DNA from: Collinsella ihumii
GTDB taxonomy: Bacteria > Actinomycetota > Coriobacteriia > Coriobacteriales > Coriobacteriaceae
Length of the DNA: 64,000 nt
Direction: 5' to 3'
Assembly (NCBI RefSeq): GCF_900046475.1
Contig: NZ_FCOU01000003.1
Coordinates: 159,713-223,712, forward strand
Positions 44,897 through 51,408 of the stretch are shown here, one piece after another. The stretch's first letter is position 1, and each line of letters opens with the position of its first letter. The translations under genes were made by a program, and so were the position numbers. Below the pieces are notes generated by a model, which was given only the letters and a program-made list of their open reading frames with translations, did no database searches and was not told the DNA's origin.

Positions 44897-45640
44897 TTAG
44901 CCGACGAGCTCCTTGACGACGGCAAGCAGGTTCTCCACCTCGTCGATCTTGGTGCAACCGGTCTGCTTGTCGATGATCGAGCTGTAGACGTGCGGGATGA
45001 TCTTGGGCACGCCCGCGTCGAGGATGATCTGCATGATCTCGCGGAAGTTCTCGGGCGTGATGCCGCCAGTCGGCTCCAGGCAGAAATCCGCCTCGGCGCA
45101 TGCCTCGGACACGGCCTTGAGCTCATCGGCGCACTTGAGACCACCCATCGGGAAGAACTTGATGGAGTTGCCGCCCATCTCCTTGATGATGGCGATGGCG
45201 GTCTTCACGGGGATGTCGGCGGGCTCGGCGCACTCGCGCGACAGCGGGCCGGTGGACACGCGCACCAGGCCCGGCGTGCCGGACGGAGCGACCATCGCGT
45301 TGATGTGGCAGTCATCGTTGCCCACGTTGGCGCGCGTCCAGCCCACGGCGCAGAACGCCTGGTTGAAATGGTGCGCCTTGACCGTCTTGGCGACCTCCGC
45401 CACGGCGCGCCACTGGTTGGGGTTGCCGCCGCCCAGGCCCACGGACAGGTTGCCCTCCAGCACGTCCATGTAGCGCTCCATGTCCTCGACCGCGCTCGGG
45501 ACATCCGGATAATCGGCGGTCAGGACGCCGACCTCGACGTGCTTCTCGGCCGCCTCGTAGATCTCGCGCGCGTTGTCCAGGCTACCGGCCAGGACGTTCA
45601 AGCACACACGGTCGTTGTAGTAGTTGATTCCAGTTGCCAT
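44897..45640 (-). CDS. dgaF: KDGP aldolase (DgaF/EF_0839 family)
   Basis: A 247-residue aldolase of the family first grouped as EF_0839 (TIGR03581). Salmonella DgaF of this type splits 2-keto-3-deoxy-6-phosphogluconate to pyruvate and glyceraldehyde-3-phosphate. The likely Schiff-base lysine is K161 in NSIKFFPMGG, followed by the phosphate-binding PTGGITPENF. It is the last gene of the operon, 6 bases after the PLP enzyme gene that would supply its substrate. Two terminators follow. The symbol follows the Salmonella dga nomenclature; the substrate is inferred. Confidence 0.88.
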   Translation of the reverse strand: MATGINYYNDRVCLNVLAGSLDNAREIYEAAEKHVEVGVLTADYPDVPSAVEDMERYMDVLEGNLSVGLGGGNPNQWRAVAEVAKTVKAHHFNQAFCAVGWTRANVGNDDCHINAMVAPSGTPGLVRVSTGPLSRECAEPADIPVKTAIAIIKEMGGNSIKFFPMGGLKCADELKAVSEACAEADFCLEPTGGITPENFREIMQIILDAGVPKIIPHVYSSIIDKQTGCTKIDEVENLLAVVKELVG

Positions 45641-45646
45641 GTTGCT

Positions 45647-46762
45647 CTATGCCTCCATAATCTTCTTTAGCTTCTCGACGATAAGCTCCTTGTCGCCCTC
45701 GACGAGCGGGCGAGGATCGAAATCGATCTTCCCGAGGTTCAAGAACTCGGTGCGCGCCCAAACGGTCGGATCGCCGTCAAGAAGCGCGTCGTTGACGGCA
45801 GTCATGGTCTTGCCCTGGGCGGCGTGAGCCGATGCGTCCAGCGTCACGCGGCAGCGCCAGATGGCACGGCCCGCCTCATCTTGGATGACCTCCGCGTTGA
45901 GGCCGTCGATGGCGCCCACGTGCTCGGCGAGCCAGGTGGCGCACTCGAGGTTGTGGCGCGCCTGCGCCTCATGGTCGCGCTCGTCGTACTGGTCGAGCGC
46001 CGCCAACAGGCCCATGATCTGCTCCTTGCCCACCTTCATTGCGCGACCGATGCCGTGGTACTGCTTGCGCACGGCGTCGATGATGTCGGCGCGGCCGCAC
46101 ACGAAGCCGGACGTCGTGGCCTCCAGCGCCTTCGCGCCGCTGTAGCACACCAGGTCGGCACCGAGGGCGATGTATTTGCGGAAGTCCTCTTCTGCCGCAC
46201 AGTCCATCATGAACGGGAGCCCGTGCCGATGCGCGATGTCGCGCATGGTCTCGATGTCTACCATGCCCTTCTGCACGCAGTGATGGCTCTTCACGTAGAA
46301 CAGGGCCACCGTCTTATCGGTGATGGCCTCCTCGATATCGGCGGGAACCACCTCGTTGGCACAACCGACCTCGACCGGCACGCCTCCGCCAAGACGGATC
46401 ATGGTCGGCATGGGGGCGCCATACTCCACCGAATGGCCCTTTTGGATGATGATCTCGTTGGGCAGACCGTGCGCGTCGGGCAGGCGCACGACATCGCTCC
46501 ACCTACCATGCGTCACGAGCGCGGCAACCGACAGGGCGATGGCCGCGGACGCGCACGACGTGGGGCAAGCGTCCTCGGCACCGGTATGCTGGGCAATCAG
46601 CTCACCGGCGCGCTTCATGAGGTCGTCGATGACCACGTAGGACTGCCCGCCCGCCACCGCTGCGGCCGCCACGCGGTCGCTGATGGTCGAAACGCCGAGC
46701 TTGGTCATACGGCCGCTTGCGTTAATCACGCGCGGCAGGCCTATCTCCGTGTAAACGCTCAT
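45647..46762 (-). CDS. dgaE: DgaE-type PLP enzyme (2-amino-2-deoxy-sugar-acid-6-phosphate ammonia-lyase)
   Basis: A 371-residue SelA-like fold-type I PLP enzyme. The cofactor lysine is K211 in CYSGAKALEATTSGF, and D187 in FMMDCAAEED probably contacts the pyridine nitrogen. Salmonella DgaE converts D-glucosaminate-6-phosphate to KDGP and ammonia, which fits the aldolase encoded directly downstream. The related YhfS and SelA-like families are alternatives, but the gene order matches dgaEF. In this cluster the PTS permease of the Salmonella system is replaced by the DUF4310/4311/4312/SFCGS genes. Confidence 0.85.
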   Translation of the reverse strand: MSVYTEIGLPRVINASGRMTKLGVSTISDRVAAAAVAGGQSYVVIDDLMKRAGELIAQHTGAEDACPTSCASAAIALSVAALVTHGRWSDVVRLPDAHGLPNEIIIQKGHSVEYGAPMPTMIRLGGGVPVEVGCANEVVPADIEEAITDKTVALFYVKSHHCVQKGMVDIETMRDIAHRHGLPFMMDCAAEEDFRKYIALGADLVCYSGAKALEATTSGFVCGRADIIDAVRKQYHGIGRAMKVGKEQIMGLLAALDQYDERDHEAQARHNLECATWLAEHVGAIDGLNAEVIQDEAGRAIWRCRVTLDASAHAAQGKTMTAVNDALLDGDPTVWARTEFLNLGKIDFDPRPLVEGDKELIVEKLKKIMEA

Positions 46763-46844
46763 TGGCTCTCCTTCGTGCGCGCCCGGATGAACCGGGCGCG
46801 CGTTATCGACATAGTGGTGAAAGTCACCGGGCAGGCGCGCTCGC

Positions 46845-47501
46845 CTACTGAATGAAGATCGCGCCCAGGATCATGGCGCCCAGGATTGCGCCGCCGGTCA
46901 TCTCCTTGCCCCACTTGTAGAAGATGGCGGAGCCGATGATGGCGCCGATACCTGCGTAGACGTTGTAGGTGGTGGCGCAGATGACGATCATGGGGGCAAG
47001 ATAGCGACCGGAAGCGTTGCCGGCGCCCATCATGATGCCCGTGCCGCCCACGGCGACGCCGGAGGGAACCAGCTTGCGGATGATGATGATCACCGCGCCG
47101 ATTACCAGACCCACGATGGCACCGAAGATGAGGGCCACGAAGAAGTTGGACAGCGGGAAATCCCAGCCCATGGAAAGCAGCAGGCCCGGGATGCCAATGC
47201 CCACGCCGGTCATGAGGGAACCACCGATATCGAGCAGGCCCACAAGCGGACCCTCGAGGATGCGTGCGATCAGGAAGCCGGCGGCGAAGCCTGCTGCCGC
47301 GCTGAAGTCGCCCGTCTCCAGGCCGCCCTGGAGCATGGCCACGATGGACACCTCGTTGAACGCTCCCGTACCGTGGCTGATGTAGAGATACGTGCCGGCG
47401 AAGATGGACGCGGCGGCACCCATCACGAGCAGGATGAAGGTCCAGTCCTTCATCAGGAGCTCGTTGAGCTTATCCATAAAGGACATCTTTTCGTTTTCCA
47501 T
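46845..47501 (-). CDS. DUF4310 membrane protein (EF_0833 family)
   Basis: A 218-residue integral membrane protein, about six hydrophobic segments, belonging to DUF4310 (EF_0833/AHA_3914, TIGR03579). Glycine-rich membrane loops (GLLDIGGSLMTGVGIGIPG; GVAVGGTGIMMGAGNASG) resemble those of solute carriers. No function is established. It always travels with the DUF4311, DUF4312 and SFCGS genes, as here, suggesting one membrane complex. I start at the ATG at 47501, which has AGGGG upstream; an in-frame GTG at 47510 is weaker. Confidence 0.88.
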   Translation of the reverse strand: MENEKMSFMDKLNELLMKDWTFILLVMGAAASIFAGTYLYISHGTGAFNEVSIVAMLQGGLETGDFSAAAGFAAGFLIARILEGPLVGLLDIGGSLMTGVGIGIPGLLLSMGWDFPLSNFFVALIFGAIVGLVIGAVIIIIRKLVPSGVAVGGTGIMMGAGNASGRYLAPMIVICATTYNVYAGIGAIIGSAIFYKWGKEMTGGAILGAMILGAIFIQ

Positions 47502-47513
47502 AAAGCACACCCC

Positions 47514-48239
47514 TTACGCTGCCGCGACGAAGAACTGGTCGAAGAACCCGCGGAAGTACGCGATGGCCACGAACATGATGATGACGATGGCGATGAGGAG
47601 GCGCACCACGTTGGACTTGTAGCCGTGCTCCTCAGCGGACTTGCCGACCAGGATGCCGAGCACCAGGCCGGGCAGAGCGTTACCGGTCACCAAAGCGGAA
47701 ATGCCGCCCAGGACCGTGGCCCACATGCCGCACATCTTGCCGCCGTCGATGGCCGCCAGCCAGAAGATGGCGGGCATGACCGGGTTGATGAGGTAGGTGG
47801 TGGCGGGGACCAGGACCTCGGAAGCGATGGTGGAGAGCTTCTCCGGGATGATCGCGGAGAGCGTGTTGAGGAAGGCCACCACCACGGCGCCCACGCCGGC
47901 GCCCGCAAAGAGCATCTTCGCCGGGTTCTGCAGGGTCTCCTCGACCTTCTTGTTACCCATCAGCAGGATGCCCGCAGCCCAGTTGGGGATGATGCGGTGG
48001 AACACGTCCTGGGTGAGCGAACCGGCTGCCACCGCGGAGGCCGCGGAGGAGAACAGGAAGCCCAGGCCGAACGAGAAGTGCGAGATGGGGTCTCCGCCGC
48101 AGGCGTTGAGCTCGCCCAGGGTCCTGAACGAACCCATGGCCTGCACTTCGGGAGCGCGGAACATGCGCGCGGCACCCGCCGCGAGGCAGCCGCCTCCGAT
48201 GGCACCAATGATGAGCGAATAGATAAGAACCTCGATCAT
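47514..48239 (-). CDS. DUF4311 membrane protein (EF_0832 family)
   Basis: A 241-residue membrane protein of DUF4311 (EF_0832/AHA_3913, TIGR03580), with about seven hydrophobic segments and a conserved cytoplasmic-type segment after the first helix (MFRAPEVQAMGSFRTLGELN). Its start overlaps the DUF4312 stop by 4 bases and its stop lies 12 bases before the DUF4310 start. It is probably the partner membrane subunit of DUF4310. Function is unknown. Confidence 0.88.
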   Translation of the reverse strand: MIEVLIYSLIIGAIGGGCLAAGAARMFRAPEVQAMGSFRTLGELNACGGDPISHFSFGLGFLFSSAASAVAAGSLTQDVFHRIIPNWAAGILLMGNKKVEETLQNPAKMLFAGAGVGAVVVAFLNTLSAIIPEKLSTIASEVLVPATTYLINPVMPAIFWLAAIDGGKMCGMWATVLGGISALVTGNALPGLVLGILVGKSAEEHGYKSNVVRLLIAIVIIMFVAIAYFRGFFDQFFVAAA

Positions 48240-48574
48240 CTGTTTTCCCTTTCGTTGATGTTCAGGTACTTGACGTCCACGACGATTCGCGCCGTCACCT
48301 CATAGGTGCGCTTCTGGCGGGGCCAGAAGAACAGCATGAAGTGCTCGGTGGTCTCCTCCACATCGACCTGGTCGAAGTAGACCTCCTTGGCCTCCATGTG
48401 GATGATCGGCTGCGTGATCTCCTGGAAGATCTGCTTGCGCATGCGCTGGAACAGCTTCCCGGTCAAATCCTGCAGCGACTCGCCGCGGGCCGTGACGGTC
48501 ATCGTGTGTTCCTTTTGCTCCAGGAGCTGCACGTCCGAACCGTCGGCGGCGATAGGGGCGGTCTCGCTACTCAT
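48236..48574 (-). CDS. DUF4312 protein (EF_0831 family)
   Basis: A 112-residue soluble protein of DUF4312 (EF_0831/AHA_3912, TIGR03578), mostly beta-strand in character (VTARGESLQDLTGKLFQRM; IIHMEAKEVYFDQVDVEE; YEVTARIVVDVKYL). It has no membrane segment or known catalytic motif. It overlaps the SFCGS gene before it and the DUF4311 gene after it, so its product is needed in step with them. I start at ATG 48574; the longer upstream frame lies inside the SFCGS gene. Confidence 0.85.
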   Translation of the reverse strand: MSSETAPIAADGSDVQLLEQKEHTMTVTARGESLQDLTGKLFQRMRKQIFQEITQPIIHMEAKEVYFDQVDVEETTEHFMLFFWPRQKRTYEVTARIVVDVKYLNINERENR

Positions 48575-48935
48575 CGCCGTGCGCTTCGCGGTAGGCCTGC
48601 ACCAGGCGCTCGCCCAGCTCCTCGGTATCGAGGAAGCCGAGGCCGACGACCTTGCAGCCCTCCTTGACGGCCGTGTACGCGGCGTCCACGCTGCGAAGCT
48701 CATAGCGCGCCGGGTACCCATACTTGGTCTGAGCAGTGAGCGCCCCCGCGCCGCCGCTTCCGCACTGGCTCACGCCGAGATCGGCGTCCATCTCCTTCAT
48801 GACGTCACCGAGCTTCATGTCGGCAGCCATGCCGGGAATGACATAGGCCTTGCCGCCGGCCTTCTCGACGCCGCGCGCGATAGCGTCGCCCTTGCCCAGG
48901 CGATGCCCGATTACCACCAAGATCTCTTTACTCAT
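48567..48935 (-). CDS. SFCGS-type glycine-rich protein (EF_0830 family)
   Basis: A 122-residue soluble protein of the EF_0830/AHA_3911 family (TIGR03577), named for its Ser-Phe-Cys-Gly-Ser motif. Here the motif reads SQCGSGGAGALTAQTKYGY (56-74), with glutamine in place of phenylalanine, and C58 kept. The N-terminus (KEILVVIGHRLGKGDAIARG) looks like the first strand and loop of a Rossmann-like or RpiB-like fold. The cysteine in a glycine-rich loop recalls PTS IIB phospho-cysteines, but the position differs and no phosphorylation is known. Confidence 0.85.
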   Translation of the reverse strand: MSKEILVVIGHRLGKGDAIARGVEKAGGKAYVIPGMAADMKLGDVMKEMDADLGVSQCGSGGAGALTAQTKYGYPARYELRSVDAAYTAVKEGCKVVGLGFLDTEELGERLVQAYREAHGDE

Positions 48936-49312
48936 TGCTCCAGTCCTTCCTTTTCCTTGGCCATTGCCACATCGAGGTGCGTCGCGAGCATAAGCACCTC
49001 AGTCTTGTCGGGCTCTTGGCCCGCTTTCGAAAACGCGTCCGCCATGAGATCCGAGGCCATCTCGCGCGCTCGGTCGGAAAGCTCGGCGAAGAGCTCCTCG
49101 TCCATCGCGGGCACGTATTCACCTGTTTCGATTCGCTTGAGCAGGCACATCACGTGGTTCGAGAACATGAGGTCGGCGTTGTCGTCCATGTGCACGCCCA
49201 ATCCGTCGTAGCGACGGGAAATGTCCTCGTACGCGGCGCACAGCGCGTCATCCACGTCGGCGAGGTTGGGGCAGCGATTCTTAAGCTCGGTTAAGGACAG
49301 CACTGCTATCAC
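48932..49312 (-). CDS. PRD-domain protein (EF_0829 family)
   Basis: A 126-residue protein made up of a single PTS-regulation domain (EF_0829/AHA_3910 family, TIGR03582). Histidines H53 (SNHVMCLLKRIETGE) and H112 (ATHLDVAMAKEKEG) occupy the positions phosphorylated in antiterminator PRDs. It has no RNA- or DNA-binding domain, so it may sense PTS phosphorylation state or act as a phosphoryl relay for the cluster. Its start overlaps the amidohydrolase gene. GTG 49312 and GTG 49303 are both possible; the latter has AGGGG at better spacing. Confidence 0.8.
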   Translation of the reverse strand: MIAVLSLTELKNRCPNLADVDDALCAAYEDISRRYDGLGVHMDDNADLMFSNHVMCLLKRIETGEYVPAMDEELFAELSDRAREMASDLMADAFSKAGQEPDKTEVLMLATHLDVAMAKEKEGLEQ

Positions 49313-50405
49313 CCCTGCTGTAGATCGTCGTGTGGACCGTGAGGCGCTTGCTCAGGGTCACGCTCTCGCCCATCGCGTCCTGGACCGACTCATCGCAGTC
49401 GTCGAGGCTGACGATGTTGAAGTCTGCGACCATGCCGGCCGCGATCTCGCCCAGGCCCGTCAAGCCGAAGTAACGCGCAGGAACGCTGGTGCACTTGCTG
49501 ACCGCGTCCTCGAAGGACTCGCCGCACGCGATGAGCTTGGACAGCGTCGTCGCCATGTCGAATACCGGGCCGCCCCAGTTCTCCACGTGCAGGTCGCTCG
49601 AGATGGAATCGCAGTCAAAGCCCGCGTCCATGGCACGCTGGAATGTCTTGAAGGCGAAACTCGCCACGCCGTGGCCCACATCGAAACGCACCCCGCGCTG
49701 GCGACCCTTGACGGCCTGCTCGATGATGGAGCCGTCCTCGTTGAGGATGCCGCCCGGCTTGCCGTGGTAGGCGTGGGTGATGATGTCGCCGGTATCCAGC
49801 AGGTCGATGACCTCGCCGAGCGCCGGCGGATAGTTGCCCACGTGCACCATGAGGGGACGGCCGAGCTCATGCGCGGTGCGCGCGGCGATGGCGATGGGCT
49901 CCAGGCCCTGATCGCCCACGACGCTTGCGCTCGCACGGGCCTTCAGGCCCACGATGTTGTCGGGATGGGCCAGCACGCACGCCTTCGCGGATTCCACGTC
50001 GACCTTTGCCGGATCGTCCAGCTCATGGCCGCGCAGCAGGCCCTCGCGGGAGATGTTCAGCAGCGTGAACACCTTGGTCTGCGCGGTGTCGATGTAGTTG
50101 GCGCGAAAGTCGTCGTATGTGTCAGCGCCGCTGCTTCCGGCATCGACGATCGTGGTCGCGCCACGATCGAGCCCCAGCACATCGGGGGCAAGACCCAAAA
50201 ACGCCTTGGGGTAGCAGTGCGTGTGGATATCGATGAATCCAGGGGTGACGAAGCGGCCTTCCGCATCGATGATCTCGCCTTGCGGCTCGATCTCGGTGCC
50301 CACTTCAGCGATGCGCCCGTCTTTGACGAGAATGTCGCCGAACTCGCCGTGCAGACCGGTGCACGGCGACAGCAATCGACCGTTTCTGATGGTCAAGAGC
50401 TTCAT
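49281..50405 (-). CDS. Amidohydrolase/deacetylase (EF_0837 family)
   Basis: A 374-residue dihydroorotase-like amidohydrolase (EF_0837/AHA_3915, TIGR03583). Binuclear metal ligands are evident: H61 and H63 (DIHTHCYP), a probable carboxylated K155 (VGLKARAS), H188 (MVHVGNYP), H211 (THAYHGKPGG) and D271 (SSDLHVENW). In the pathway sense it would remove an N-acyl or other amide group so that the amino-sugar acid can be deaminated by the DgaE-like enzyme. It is the first gene of the operon, divergent from the GntR regulator, with AAGGAG upstream. Confidence 0.87.
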   Translation of the reverse strand: MKLLTIRNGRLLSPCTGLHGEFGDILVKDGRIAEVGTEIEPQGEIIDAEGRFVTPGFIDIHTHCYPKAFLGLAPDVLGLDRGATTIVDAGSSGADTYDDFRANYIDTAQTKVFTLLNISREGLLRGHELDDPAKVDVESAKACVLAHPDNIVGLKARASASVVGDQGLEPIAIAARTAHELGRPLMVHVGNYPPALGEVIDLLDTGDIITHAYHGKPGGILNEDGSIIEQAVKGRQRGVRFDVGHGVASFAFKTFQRAMDAGFDCDSISSDLHVENWGGPVFDMATTLSKLIACGESFEDAVSKCTSVPARYFGLTGLGEIAAGMVADFNIVSLDDCDESVQDAMGESVTLSKRLTVHTTIYSRGDSSAVLNRA

Positions 50406-50685
50406 GTACCACGCTCCTTATCTCACTCGCAGCATGTTCCTTCCGTACGCATCGATGCGCCCGACAGACAGTCCGACTCGCAACCAGGCGCGCATATATA
50501 TCGGCACAGTCGTTCTGTCTATATCAGGACGGTCCTTATATTATCCCGATACAATTTCTTGGCTATATCGATTCTGTTAATCGGTAGTTTCGGGACGCTG
50601 AACGGTTTATTACCTTGCCTAGGGTGCTTTTCGCTAAAATTGGTCCATACCGTTTGCTATAAAAGACTGGGCCTGGAGGATAAGG
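50406..50685. promoter_or_regulatory. Divergent control region of the EF_08xx operon and its GntR regulator
   Basis: 280 AT-rich bases containing several TATATC motifs, the palindrome at 50521-50541, and a second weak dyad (ACAG...CTGT) near 50500-50515. Promoters in both directions are likely, but I cannot fix the -35/-10 pairs. Confidence 0.55.
50521..50541. promoter_or_regulatory. 21-base palindromic operator candidate (GntR)
   Basis: ATATCAGGAC (50521-50530) and GTCCTTATAT (50532-50541) are complementary at 9 of 10 positions around one base. It lies midway between the divergent amidohydrolase and GntR genes and overlaps AT-rich promoter-like sequence, a natural site for the GntR protein. 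Confidence 0.6.
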
Positions 50686-51408
50686 GTGTACAAATATGAG
50701 GAGATCGCCGAGGACATCGAGAACGCGATACGCGAGGGCGCCCTCAAAGCCTATGATCAGCTCCCGACTGTCAAAGAGCTCTGCGAGACCTATAACGTCA
50801 GCAAAAGCACCATTACCCAGGTAATTAATGAACTCTCTGCGCGCGGACTCATTGCACGGCGCCGCGGATCGGGCATGTTCGTGAAGAGCTTCGCCAACGA
50901 GGCCGATGACTACTGGAGCAAGTACAACCAGATCATCAACTACACCGAGGAGACCGCGCGCAGCGAAGCGGACCAACCCATCACCATCGAGGTCTATGAC
51001 TTCACCGTCGTGCAGCCGGAAGCAGCCGTGTGCCAGGCGCTCGACCTCGATCGCAAGAGCTTCACGTATTTCGTTACGCGCGGTCGCAAGACCGAGACGG
51101 GAACGTTTCTCATCGAGTACATCTATGTCCCGCTGGAGCTCGCCGCGGGCTTCAAATACGACCACGCCAACGGGGCCATCCACACCTTCATCGAAGACAA
51201 TCTCGGGCTGAAAATCGGAAGCATCCACCGCGCCATCCGCGCGGTCATGCCCACCACCGAGGAACGGGCCCGCCTGCAAATCGCGTATGGCACGCCGCTG
51301 CTCGAGATCGAGCAGGTGGGCTTTCTTGCCGACGGCAGGCCATTCGAATACATCCTGTCGCACTACCGTGGCGACCGATACGAATTCCGAACGGTCGACA
51401 ACCTGTAA
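50686..51408 (+). CDS. GntR/HutC-family transcriptional regulator
   Basis: A 240-residue regulator. A winged HTH covers residues 1-65 (DQLPTVKELCETYNVSKSTI; RGLIARRRGSGMFV) and a UTRA ligand-binding domain about 95-235, placing it in the HutC subfamily that often senses amino sugars or their phosphates (for example NagR). The start codon is GTG with GGAGG 6 bases upstream. It is divergent from the EF_08xx-type operon and very probably controls it through the palindrome at 50521-50541. Confidence 0.9.
   Translation: MYKYEEIAEDIENAIREGALKAYDQLPTVKELCETYNVSKSTITQVINELSARGLIARRRGSGMFVKSFANEADDYWSKYNQIINYTEETARSEADQPITIEVYDFTVVQPEAAVCQALDLDRKSFTYFVTRGRKTETGTFLIEYIYVPLELAAGFKYDHANGAIHTFIEDNLGLKIGSIHRAIRAVMPTTEERARLQIAYGTPLLEIEQVGFLADGRPFEYILSHYRGDRYEFRTVDNL

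Follow-up and report, generated by a model that had tools for sequence, protein, structure and literature searches.

Proposed PTS-coupled uptake and catabolism of an N-acylated amino sugar acid in Collinsella ihumii

Described relatives and the Collinsella operon

This work concerns an eight-gene operon in a 64,000-nucleotide stretch of the Collinsella ihumii genome, referred to throughout as the window. Three described systems bear on it. In Salmonella, the dga system (dgaABCDEF) has DgaABCD, a mannose-family permease of the phosphotransferase system (PTS), which supplies D-glucosaminate 6-phosphate to the ammonia-lyase DgaE, together with a LevR-like regulator (PMC9529869, PMC4987338). In Escherichia coli, the unexplained operon yhfZYXW-php-yhfUTS (L093:4936-12345) encodes a stand-alone PRD (YhfY), a homologue of the glycine-rich protein SFCGS (YhfU), a membrane protein (YhfT) and pyridoxal phosphate enzymes. 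The EF_0829-EF_0839 or AHA_3910-3917 cluster (TIGR03577-TIGR03583) has been described, is uncharacterised, and is the one to which the Collinsella operon belongs. The names of its models assign no role to SFCGS, DUF4312, DUF4311 and DUF4310. A literature search, from which subscription journals were mostly absent, returned no paper naming DUF4310, DUF4311, DUF4312 or EF_0837. EF0839 is mentioned in the discussion of a Tn-seq study, which suggests amino-sugar metabolism (PMC7701990), and is included in an in vivo expression screen (PMC2912369). We put at about even the chance that the operon serves to take up an N-acylated 2-amino-2-deoxy sugar acid in a PTS-coupled manner and to break it down.

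A previous interpretation, made from the letters of the window and its open reading frames (ORFs) alone, is called the sequence-only reading below. It placed eight genes in one operon, and the window ORFs bear this out. All lie on the minus strand, from 50405 down to 44897, in the following 5' to 3' order:

49281 to 50405, minus strand: amidohydrolase/deacetylase-family metallohydrolase, EF_0837-type (NCBIfam)
48932 to 49312, minus strand: stand-alone PRD, EF_0829-type (Pfam)
48567 to 48935, minus strand: SFCGS glycine-rich protein, EF_0830-type (Pfam, NCBIfam)
48236 to 48574, minus strand: DUF4312 small soluble protein, EF_0831-type (Pfam)
47514 to 48239, minus strand: DUF4311 membrane protein, EF_0832-type (Pfam, hydropathy)
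46845 to 47510, minus strand: DUF4310 membrane protein, EF_0833-type (Pfam, hydropathy)
45647 to 46762, minus strand: DgaE-family pyridoxal phosphate ammonia-lyase (TIGR01437)
44897 to 45640, minus strand: KDGP aldolase, DgaF/EF_0839-type, the final gene of the operon (NF047796, EF_0839 model)

The family names proposed earlier agree with both Pfam and NCBIfam. Pfam E-values are 3e-81 for DUF4310, 1.5e-99 for DUF4311, 7e-54 for SFCGS, 5e-18 for DUF4312, 6e-5 for PRD and 1e-91 for KDGP_aldolase. Four of the seven EF_0829-EF_0839 models exceed their curated NCBIfam cut-offs: EF_0830 (176 against 141 bits), EF_0832 (313 against 301), EF_0833 (226 against 215) and EF_0839 (342 against 222). The other three fall below theirs and still rank first or second: EF_0829 (34 against 69), EF_0831 (53 against 90) and EF_0837 (343 against 432). 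Hence, the operon was assigned to this cluster.

To place the operon among its relatives, we scanned species genomes with a DUF4311 alignment. At least 531 relatives were confirmed and the best 80 retained (L008-L087). With five loci from plasmid records, these make a set of 85, which holds the closest relatives rather than a random sample. Note that the Aeromonas locus (L005) is counted among the 85, with several of its gene ORFs missing or broken. The gene set occurs in Bacillota, Coriobacteriia, Gammaproteobacteria, Fusobacteriales and on Bartonella plasmids, so conservation across phyla, also proposed earlier, is upheld. Since the set recurs in related loci, a chance origin is excluded. 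Searches with single reference proteins detected DUF4311 and SFCGS in all 85 loci and DUF4310 in 84; for the amidohydrolase, lyase and aldolase the counts are 82, 81 and 77, respectively. Several of these misses are truncated contigs. DUF4312 adjoins SFCGS in 85 of 85, according to family profiles built from those loci.

The window operon and dga share a lyase followed by an aldolase, each from one family, and a retained phosphate site in the lyase; a PTS link, known for dga, is suggested for the window type by genomic association (PMC4987338, PMC9529869). They differ in what surrounds these enzymes. The DgaABCD permease and the LevR-like regulator are absent from the window operon, which instead has SFCGS, DUF4312, DUF4311, DUF4310 and PRD, an additional amidohydrolase and a GntR regulator.

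In the pathway that we propose, phosphate would pass from phosphoenolpyruvate, via enzyme I and HPr, to the stand-alone PRD, where histidine H53, or perhaps H112, would accept it. From there it would move to SFCGS, probably at the invariant Cys58. SFCGS, with DUF4312, would phosphorylate the substrate during import by the DUF4311/DUF4310 membrane pair. The amidohydrolase would strip the N-acyl group from the sugar acid, the DgaE-like lyase would generate 2-keto-3-deoxy-6-phosphogluconate or an epimer, and the aldolase would release pyruvate and glyceraldehyde 3-phosphate. We infer the path of the phosphate, transport by the membrane pair, the identity of the substrate, and the order of deacylation and phosphorylation. 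The sequences themselves establish the parts and their order, linkage to HPr and enzyme I in some relatives, fusion of PRD to SFCGS, and conserved residues.

On our best reading, PRD and SFCGS would replace IIA and IIB in a PTS-coupled uptake complex. As modelled, the complex resembles a classical PTS enzyme II in being fed by enzyme I and HPr, and in combining soluble carriers with a membrane pair. It differs in that homology to IIA, IIB or IIC was undetected in the five module proteins. Somewhat short of an even chance, in our estimate, is the wider proposal of a new class of phosphotransferase transporter built from unrelated proteins: PRD for IIA, RpiB-like SFCGS for IIB, and the DUF4311/DUF4310 membrane pair. 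E. coli YhfY-YhfU-YhfT would be a second branch, in which the same PRD and SFCGS/YhfU pair serves another membrane protein. If true, an enzyme II class of this kind would be unexpected, the PTS being among the best-studied bacterial uptake systems, and PRD would change from a regulator domain to a working phosphocarrier. The four unassigned families of a widespread cluster and, by analogy, the yhf operon would gain a concrete and testable role.

PRD, SFCGS and the link to HPr and enzyme I

An HPr gene lies inside, or adjoins, the operon in 19 of the 85 loci, and eight of these loci, all from Paenibacillus, have an enzyme I gene too. Counted by gene run, linkage to HPr or enzyme I is seen in 18 of 84 (L005 is omitted, and the L056 run breaks off at a gap). 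The HPr gene is found 3' of the aldolase gene in Caproiciproducens, Amazonia, Mobilisporobacter and Brevibacillus, and 5' of an antiterminator gene in 11 Paenibacillus loci, including the eight with enzyme I. On two Bartonella plasmids, HPr and enzyme I are fused (L006:8047-10062 and L007:15405-17420). All 19 HPr sequences, both fusions included, keep the active-site motif G[IL]H[AS]RP, while the enzyme I active site, GGxTSHxA, is kept in all ten operon-borne proteins. Note that the HPr count omits L015, where an enzyme I-like match of 864 amino acids has, in our judgement, the length of pyruvate phosphate dikinase. In the three Paenibacillus genomes for which positions were matched (L051, L054 and L056), the enzyme I of the operon is one of three copies. 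The window genome encodes HPr and enzyme I away from the operon. Dedicated HPr and enzyme I genes have been found to accompany PTS transporters or dihydroxyacetone kinases, and so substrate phosphorylation (PMC2405797). Such genes set a precedent for relay proteins that are encoded within an operon and used to phosphorylate its substrate.

Enzyme I also co-occurs with the operon at the level of whole genomes. It was found in 46 of 49 operon-bearing genomes, taken from 50 of the 80 scanned loci, compared with 154 of 388 genomes sampled from the same phylum as a Paenibacillus member (Fisher p 5e-14). For the subset that we assigned to Bacillota, the count is 37 of 38 (Fisher p 4e-13). Genomes with YhfT above cut-off, within the same sample of 388, encode enzyme I in 11 of 11 cases (hypergeometric p 3e-5).

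The stand-alone PRD protein has PRD as its only Pfam match, and no DNA- or RNA-binding domain was found in it. All 78 sequences in the alignment keep residues H53, R60, E105 and H112; in the L024 protein, which is outside that alignment, the second histidine is glutamine by eye. A small PRD ORF directly adjoins SFCGS in 82 of the 85 loci (the ORF is short in L042). In the remaining three (L029, L030 and L037, the first two from one isolate) PRD and SFCGS are fused. Residues 1-122 of the fusion score 94-96 bits with the PRD profile and residues 132-247 score 190-192 bits with the SFCGS profile, in agreement with Pfam. Furthermore, PRD still stands beside SFCGS in all ten loci where an antiterminator ORF was not observed, some of which are cut short. 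Because PRD is kept in such loci, and because it can be fused to SFCGS, it probably belongs to the working machinery of the complex and does more than regulate. A fused PRD lacking any nucleic-acid-binding domain is better explained as a machine part than as an antiterminator. The sequence-only reading had cast PRD as a phosphorylation-linked regulator; our model keeps the tie to phosphorylation and gives PRD a probable role beyond regulation.

An operon of Paenibacillus oralis (L025) is composed of HPr, antiterminator, PRD, SFCGS, DUF4312, DUF4311 and DUF4310 genes. Its neighbours are a methyltransferase-like gene and, at the opposite end, a catalase gene, and the 20.7 kb examined encodes none of the three catabolic enzymes. 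Hence, relay parts and membrane pair appear to be the core of the system.

SFCGS residues R12, D39, C58 (within CGSGGAGA), K71 and R81 are conserved in 78 of 78 sequences. Candidate phosphoryl sites are the invariant Cys58 and the PRD histidines. Pfam matches, at E up to 1, for the window PRD, SFCGS, DUF4312, DUF4311 and DUF4310 proteins include no IIA family, and PRD, with its conserved histidines, is a family distinct from IIA. Likewise, 51 SFCGS members matched 13 Pfam families with the E limit set at 10, and no PTS IIB family was among them. The matches include LacAB_rpiB, weakly and for 32 members (best E 5e-4), and DUF2620/YhfU, for 21. An hhalign comparison of SFCGS with 12 YhfU proteins gave probability 90 and a score of 41.8 over 117 columns, against a maximum of 18.6 for 20 column shuffles; SFCGS compared with E. 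coli YhfU alone gave no match. From these profiles we conclude that SFCGS is homologous to YhfU/DUF2620 over its whole length. In sequence, SFCGS is not IIB-like.

SFCGS also resembles the LacAB/RpiB isomerases around a Cys-Gly-(Ser/Thr)-Gly loop. With an RpiB-type profile (25 ORFs from 30 loci, chosen by the loop motif) the score was 28.5, compared with a maximum of 21.6 for 30 shuffles, and the loop was aligned. This similarity is weak and suggestive only. SFCGS is shorter than the isomerases, and the LacAB_rpiB gathering score of 24.7 bits is missed where bits are given: window SFCGS has no match and the L029 protein scores 16.3 bits. A relationship between YhfU and RpiB is not claimed, its score of 23.4 being lower than the best of 30 shuffles (26.8). 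Separately, a single ORF of Providencia stuartii (L077:9275-9952) encodes both SFCGS and DUF4312. This is one record, either a fusion or a sequencing error, and was not used.

The pairing of PRD with an SFCGS-like protein recurs among yhf-type clusters. We compared 13 YhfT clusters, from E. coli, Cetobacterium, Vibrio halioticoli and ten genomes of the Paenibacillus phylum. Ten of the 13 have PRD, YhfU and YhfT genes side by side in this order. In E. coli and Vibrio the PRD gene is set apart, and none was detected in L111. One cluster ends with an HPr gene (L112:13671-14000). YhfY and the Cetobacterium PRD keep the first histidine and have asparagine in place of the second. The first histidine is, therefore, indicated as the shared site. 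Differences from the window operon are that YhfT has no detectable homology to DUF4310 or DUF4311, and that the yhf enzymes are other ones.

Membrane pair, catabolic enzymes and alternatives

The DUF4311 and DUF4310 genes stay together in every one of 84 gene runs. Both proteins have about six hydrophobic stretches. Residues R25, E43, N45, D50, H54, H81 and R82 of DUF4311, and N52, R83, E86, D94, T101, N165 and R169 of DUF4310, are invariant in 84 of 84. Hydrophobic stretches combined with invariant polar residues are consistent with a transporter. Comparison of both proteins with known transporters and solved structures, using Pfam, PDB sequences and profiles, revealed no convincing homology. 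Two further relationships were considered. That DUF4310 and DUF4311 are related to each other gave only noise when judged against reversed alignments, with a method that also missed the IIC-IID control. That they correspond to halves of YhfT was rejected, profile comparison having given nothing. A T-x-D-x-x-H-R-like motif, seen in one hhalign comparison with E. coli YhfT, is not conserved across the 13 YhfT proteins. For DUF4312, no histidine or cysteine column is conserved at 95% or above among 80 sequences. Its pattern of strand, helix and strands, with a G-x-G start, loosely brings to mind dodecin-like folds.

The amidohydrolase scores 381 bits with NF006689 (cut-off 371) and has 8wzy, 2ics, 2ogj and 8je0 as solved relatives. 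Residues D59, H61, H63, K155, H188, H211 and D271, presumably metal ligands, are invariant in 82 of 82 sequences. We take 2ics to be EF0837 and 2ogj to be Atu3266. For Atu3266, hydrolysis of acetyl-R-mandelate has been reported (Ornelas and co-workers, 2013). The lyase scores 439 bits with TIGR01437, the selA_rel/DgaE subfamily (cut-off 385), and misses the DgaE equivalog (448 against 600). The aldolase scores 357 bits with NF047796 (cut-off 300), with 3m0z and 3nzr as solved relatives. In a docked model of DgaE, the phosphate of the substrate is close to Arg301, Arg332 and Arg346 (PMC9529869). These align with R303, R337 and R351 of the window lyase, each conserved in 78 of 78 sequences. Where DgaE has its carboxylate ligand, Arg226, arginine is found in 24 of 78 and lysine in 54 of 78. 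The conserved phosphate site in the lyase suggests a phosphorylated substrate. Taken with the subfamily score of the lyase and the equivalog score of the aldolase, the arginines also substantiate the earlier assignment of the last two enzymes to the dga type.

The sequence-only reading had further proposed that the four unassigned proteins form a PTS-like uptake complex in place of the dga permease. This idea is strengthened by the operon-borne HPr and enzyme I of some relatives, the co-occurrence with enzyme I, the lyase phosphate site, the fusion of PRD to SFCGS and the module that occurs without the enzymes. PRD and SFCGS are given revised roles here, and the mechanism is a prediction.

Several observations weigh against PTS-coupled uptake. 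No HPr was found in 66 of the 85 loci. Enzyme I was not found in three of the 49 operon genomes, two of which (L041 and L065) also had no HPr; the L041 genome is a metagenome bin, the L065 contig ends within the antiterminator gene, and HPr was found in the third genome (L019). The co-occurrence test carries less weight on account of relatedness among the genomes, their size and incomplete bins. A survey lists Bartonella as having ptsH and no ptsI, yet multi-domain PTS sequences of B. henselae and B. quintana appear in one of its figure legends (PMC2405797). The genus may therefore encode an enzyme I domain apart from the plasmid HPr-EI fusion. SFCGS resembles an isomerase family and not a phosphocarrier. 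Pfam scans of 54 DUF4310 and 52 DUF4311 members (25 of 27 matched families inspected for DUF4311) returned no PTS family, and hhalign comparison of the two proteins with Man IIC, Man IID and Gut IIC gave noise. Note that absent profile similarity means little, because the only control, Man IIC against Man IID, failed likewise. Finally, the search for kinase genes across the loci covered the PfkB-type family only.

These points leave room for other explanations. It could be that the PTS link is regulatory only, since PRD-bearing antiterminators, which are controlled by HPr, would need HPr as well. The substrate would then enter unphosphorylated via DUF4311/DUF4310, PRD and HPr would gate the transporter or an antiterminator, and a kinase encoded elsewhere in the genome would phosphorylate the substrate ahead of the lyase. 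BglG-type antiterminator ORFs, present in 75 of the 85 loci, fit such a scheme: of 71 long ORFs, 47 were scanned and all 47 have PRD, with PTS IIB in 18 and an EIIA_2 match in 8. HPr control of PRD antiterminators is established. DgaR provides a comparison (PMC4987338). PfkB-type kinase genes do occur, in Enterococcus and two Paenibacillus loci, yet none was found in the other 82 of 85. The Bartonella cassette has HPr-EI and no annotated kinase within the stretches examined. Furthermore, PRD persists in the ten loci with no observed antiterminator, its fusion partner is SFCGS and not a nucleic-acid-binding domain, and dedicated HPr and enzyme I elsewhere accompany PTS transporters or dihydroxyacetone kinases (PMC2405797). 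Overall, we consider a purely regulatory PTS rather unlikely, if worth keeping in mind.

Two more alternatives concern single components. SFCGS might be an enzyme that acts on a phosphorylated sugar, as a divergent isomerase or epimerase of LacAB/RpiB type, with another carrier relaying phosphate to the substrate. The weak LacAB_rpiB matches and the aligned loop speak for this. Against it, the gathering score is missed where bits are given, breakdown of an aminated aldonic acid should require no isomerase, L025 retains SFCGS with no catabolic enzymes, and fusion to PRD points to phosphotransfer or its control. We judge an enzymatic SFCGS improbable. It is more doubtful still that DUF4310 and DUF4311 form some other membrane complex, with uptake left to a separate permease. 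Their transporter homology is unrecognised in the Pfam, PDB and profile comparisons, and the Enterococcus run does contain a PTS IIC gene. Such IIC genes occur in only 3 of 85 loci, however, the DUF4311 and DUF4310 genes are constant partners, and the dga genes beside the same two enzymes encode a permease (PMC4987338, PMC9529869). A non-transporting pair is, in our view, very improbable.

Regulation, distribution and neighbouring genes

Two features upstream of the operon are relevant to its control. The regulator gene was omitted from the sequence-only reading.

50686 to 51408, plus strand: divergent GntR/UTRA transcriptional regulator (Pfam UTRA 1e-28, GntR 1e-18)
50522 to 50540, no strand assigned: imperfect palindrome in the divergent promoter region, found by eye, a weak candidate operator

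The divergent regulator is likely to be the switch of the operon. A similar GntR gene is divergent in L008, L009 and L010, and GntR is found in Coriobacteriia and Companilactobacillus. The palindrome core, AGGACNGTCCT, occurs once in the window, where 0.01 occurrences are expected, and is missing from the close relative L008. A hairpin 3' of the aldolase gene, seen in the centroid structure only, may be a terminator.

Among 296 genomes of its phylum, only the window's own genome passed the DUF4311 cut-off. Hence, the operon is rare in that phylum. A near relative with 95% identity, from Collinsella phocaeensis (L008), was found in a separate collection. A blastn search of 5,426 E. coli genomes with the Klebsiella DUF4311 gene gave no match. 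Both Bartonella plasmids are about 55 kb and have the whole cassette with the HPr-EI fusion, possibly a mobile catabolic cassette.

Other genes neighbour the operon in particular lineages. HAD-type hydrolase genes do so repeatedly, in a cluster represented by L017:4909-5793 (14 loci) and another represented by L064:13296-13958 (7 loci); clusters were grouped by blastp and annotated from one representative each. The Enterococcus faecalis run (L004:10548-13283) adds PTS IIC, a 99-amino-acid protein and a MupG-type 6-phospho-muramidase. These extra genes perhaps tie the pathway to sugars of peptidoglycan or to muramic acid. Klebsiella has a lactonase gene 3' of the aldolase gene (L003:13504-14658), which suggests a sugar lactone as one entry point.

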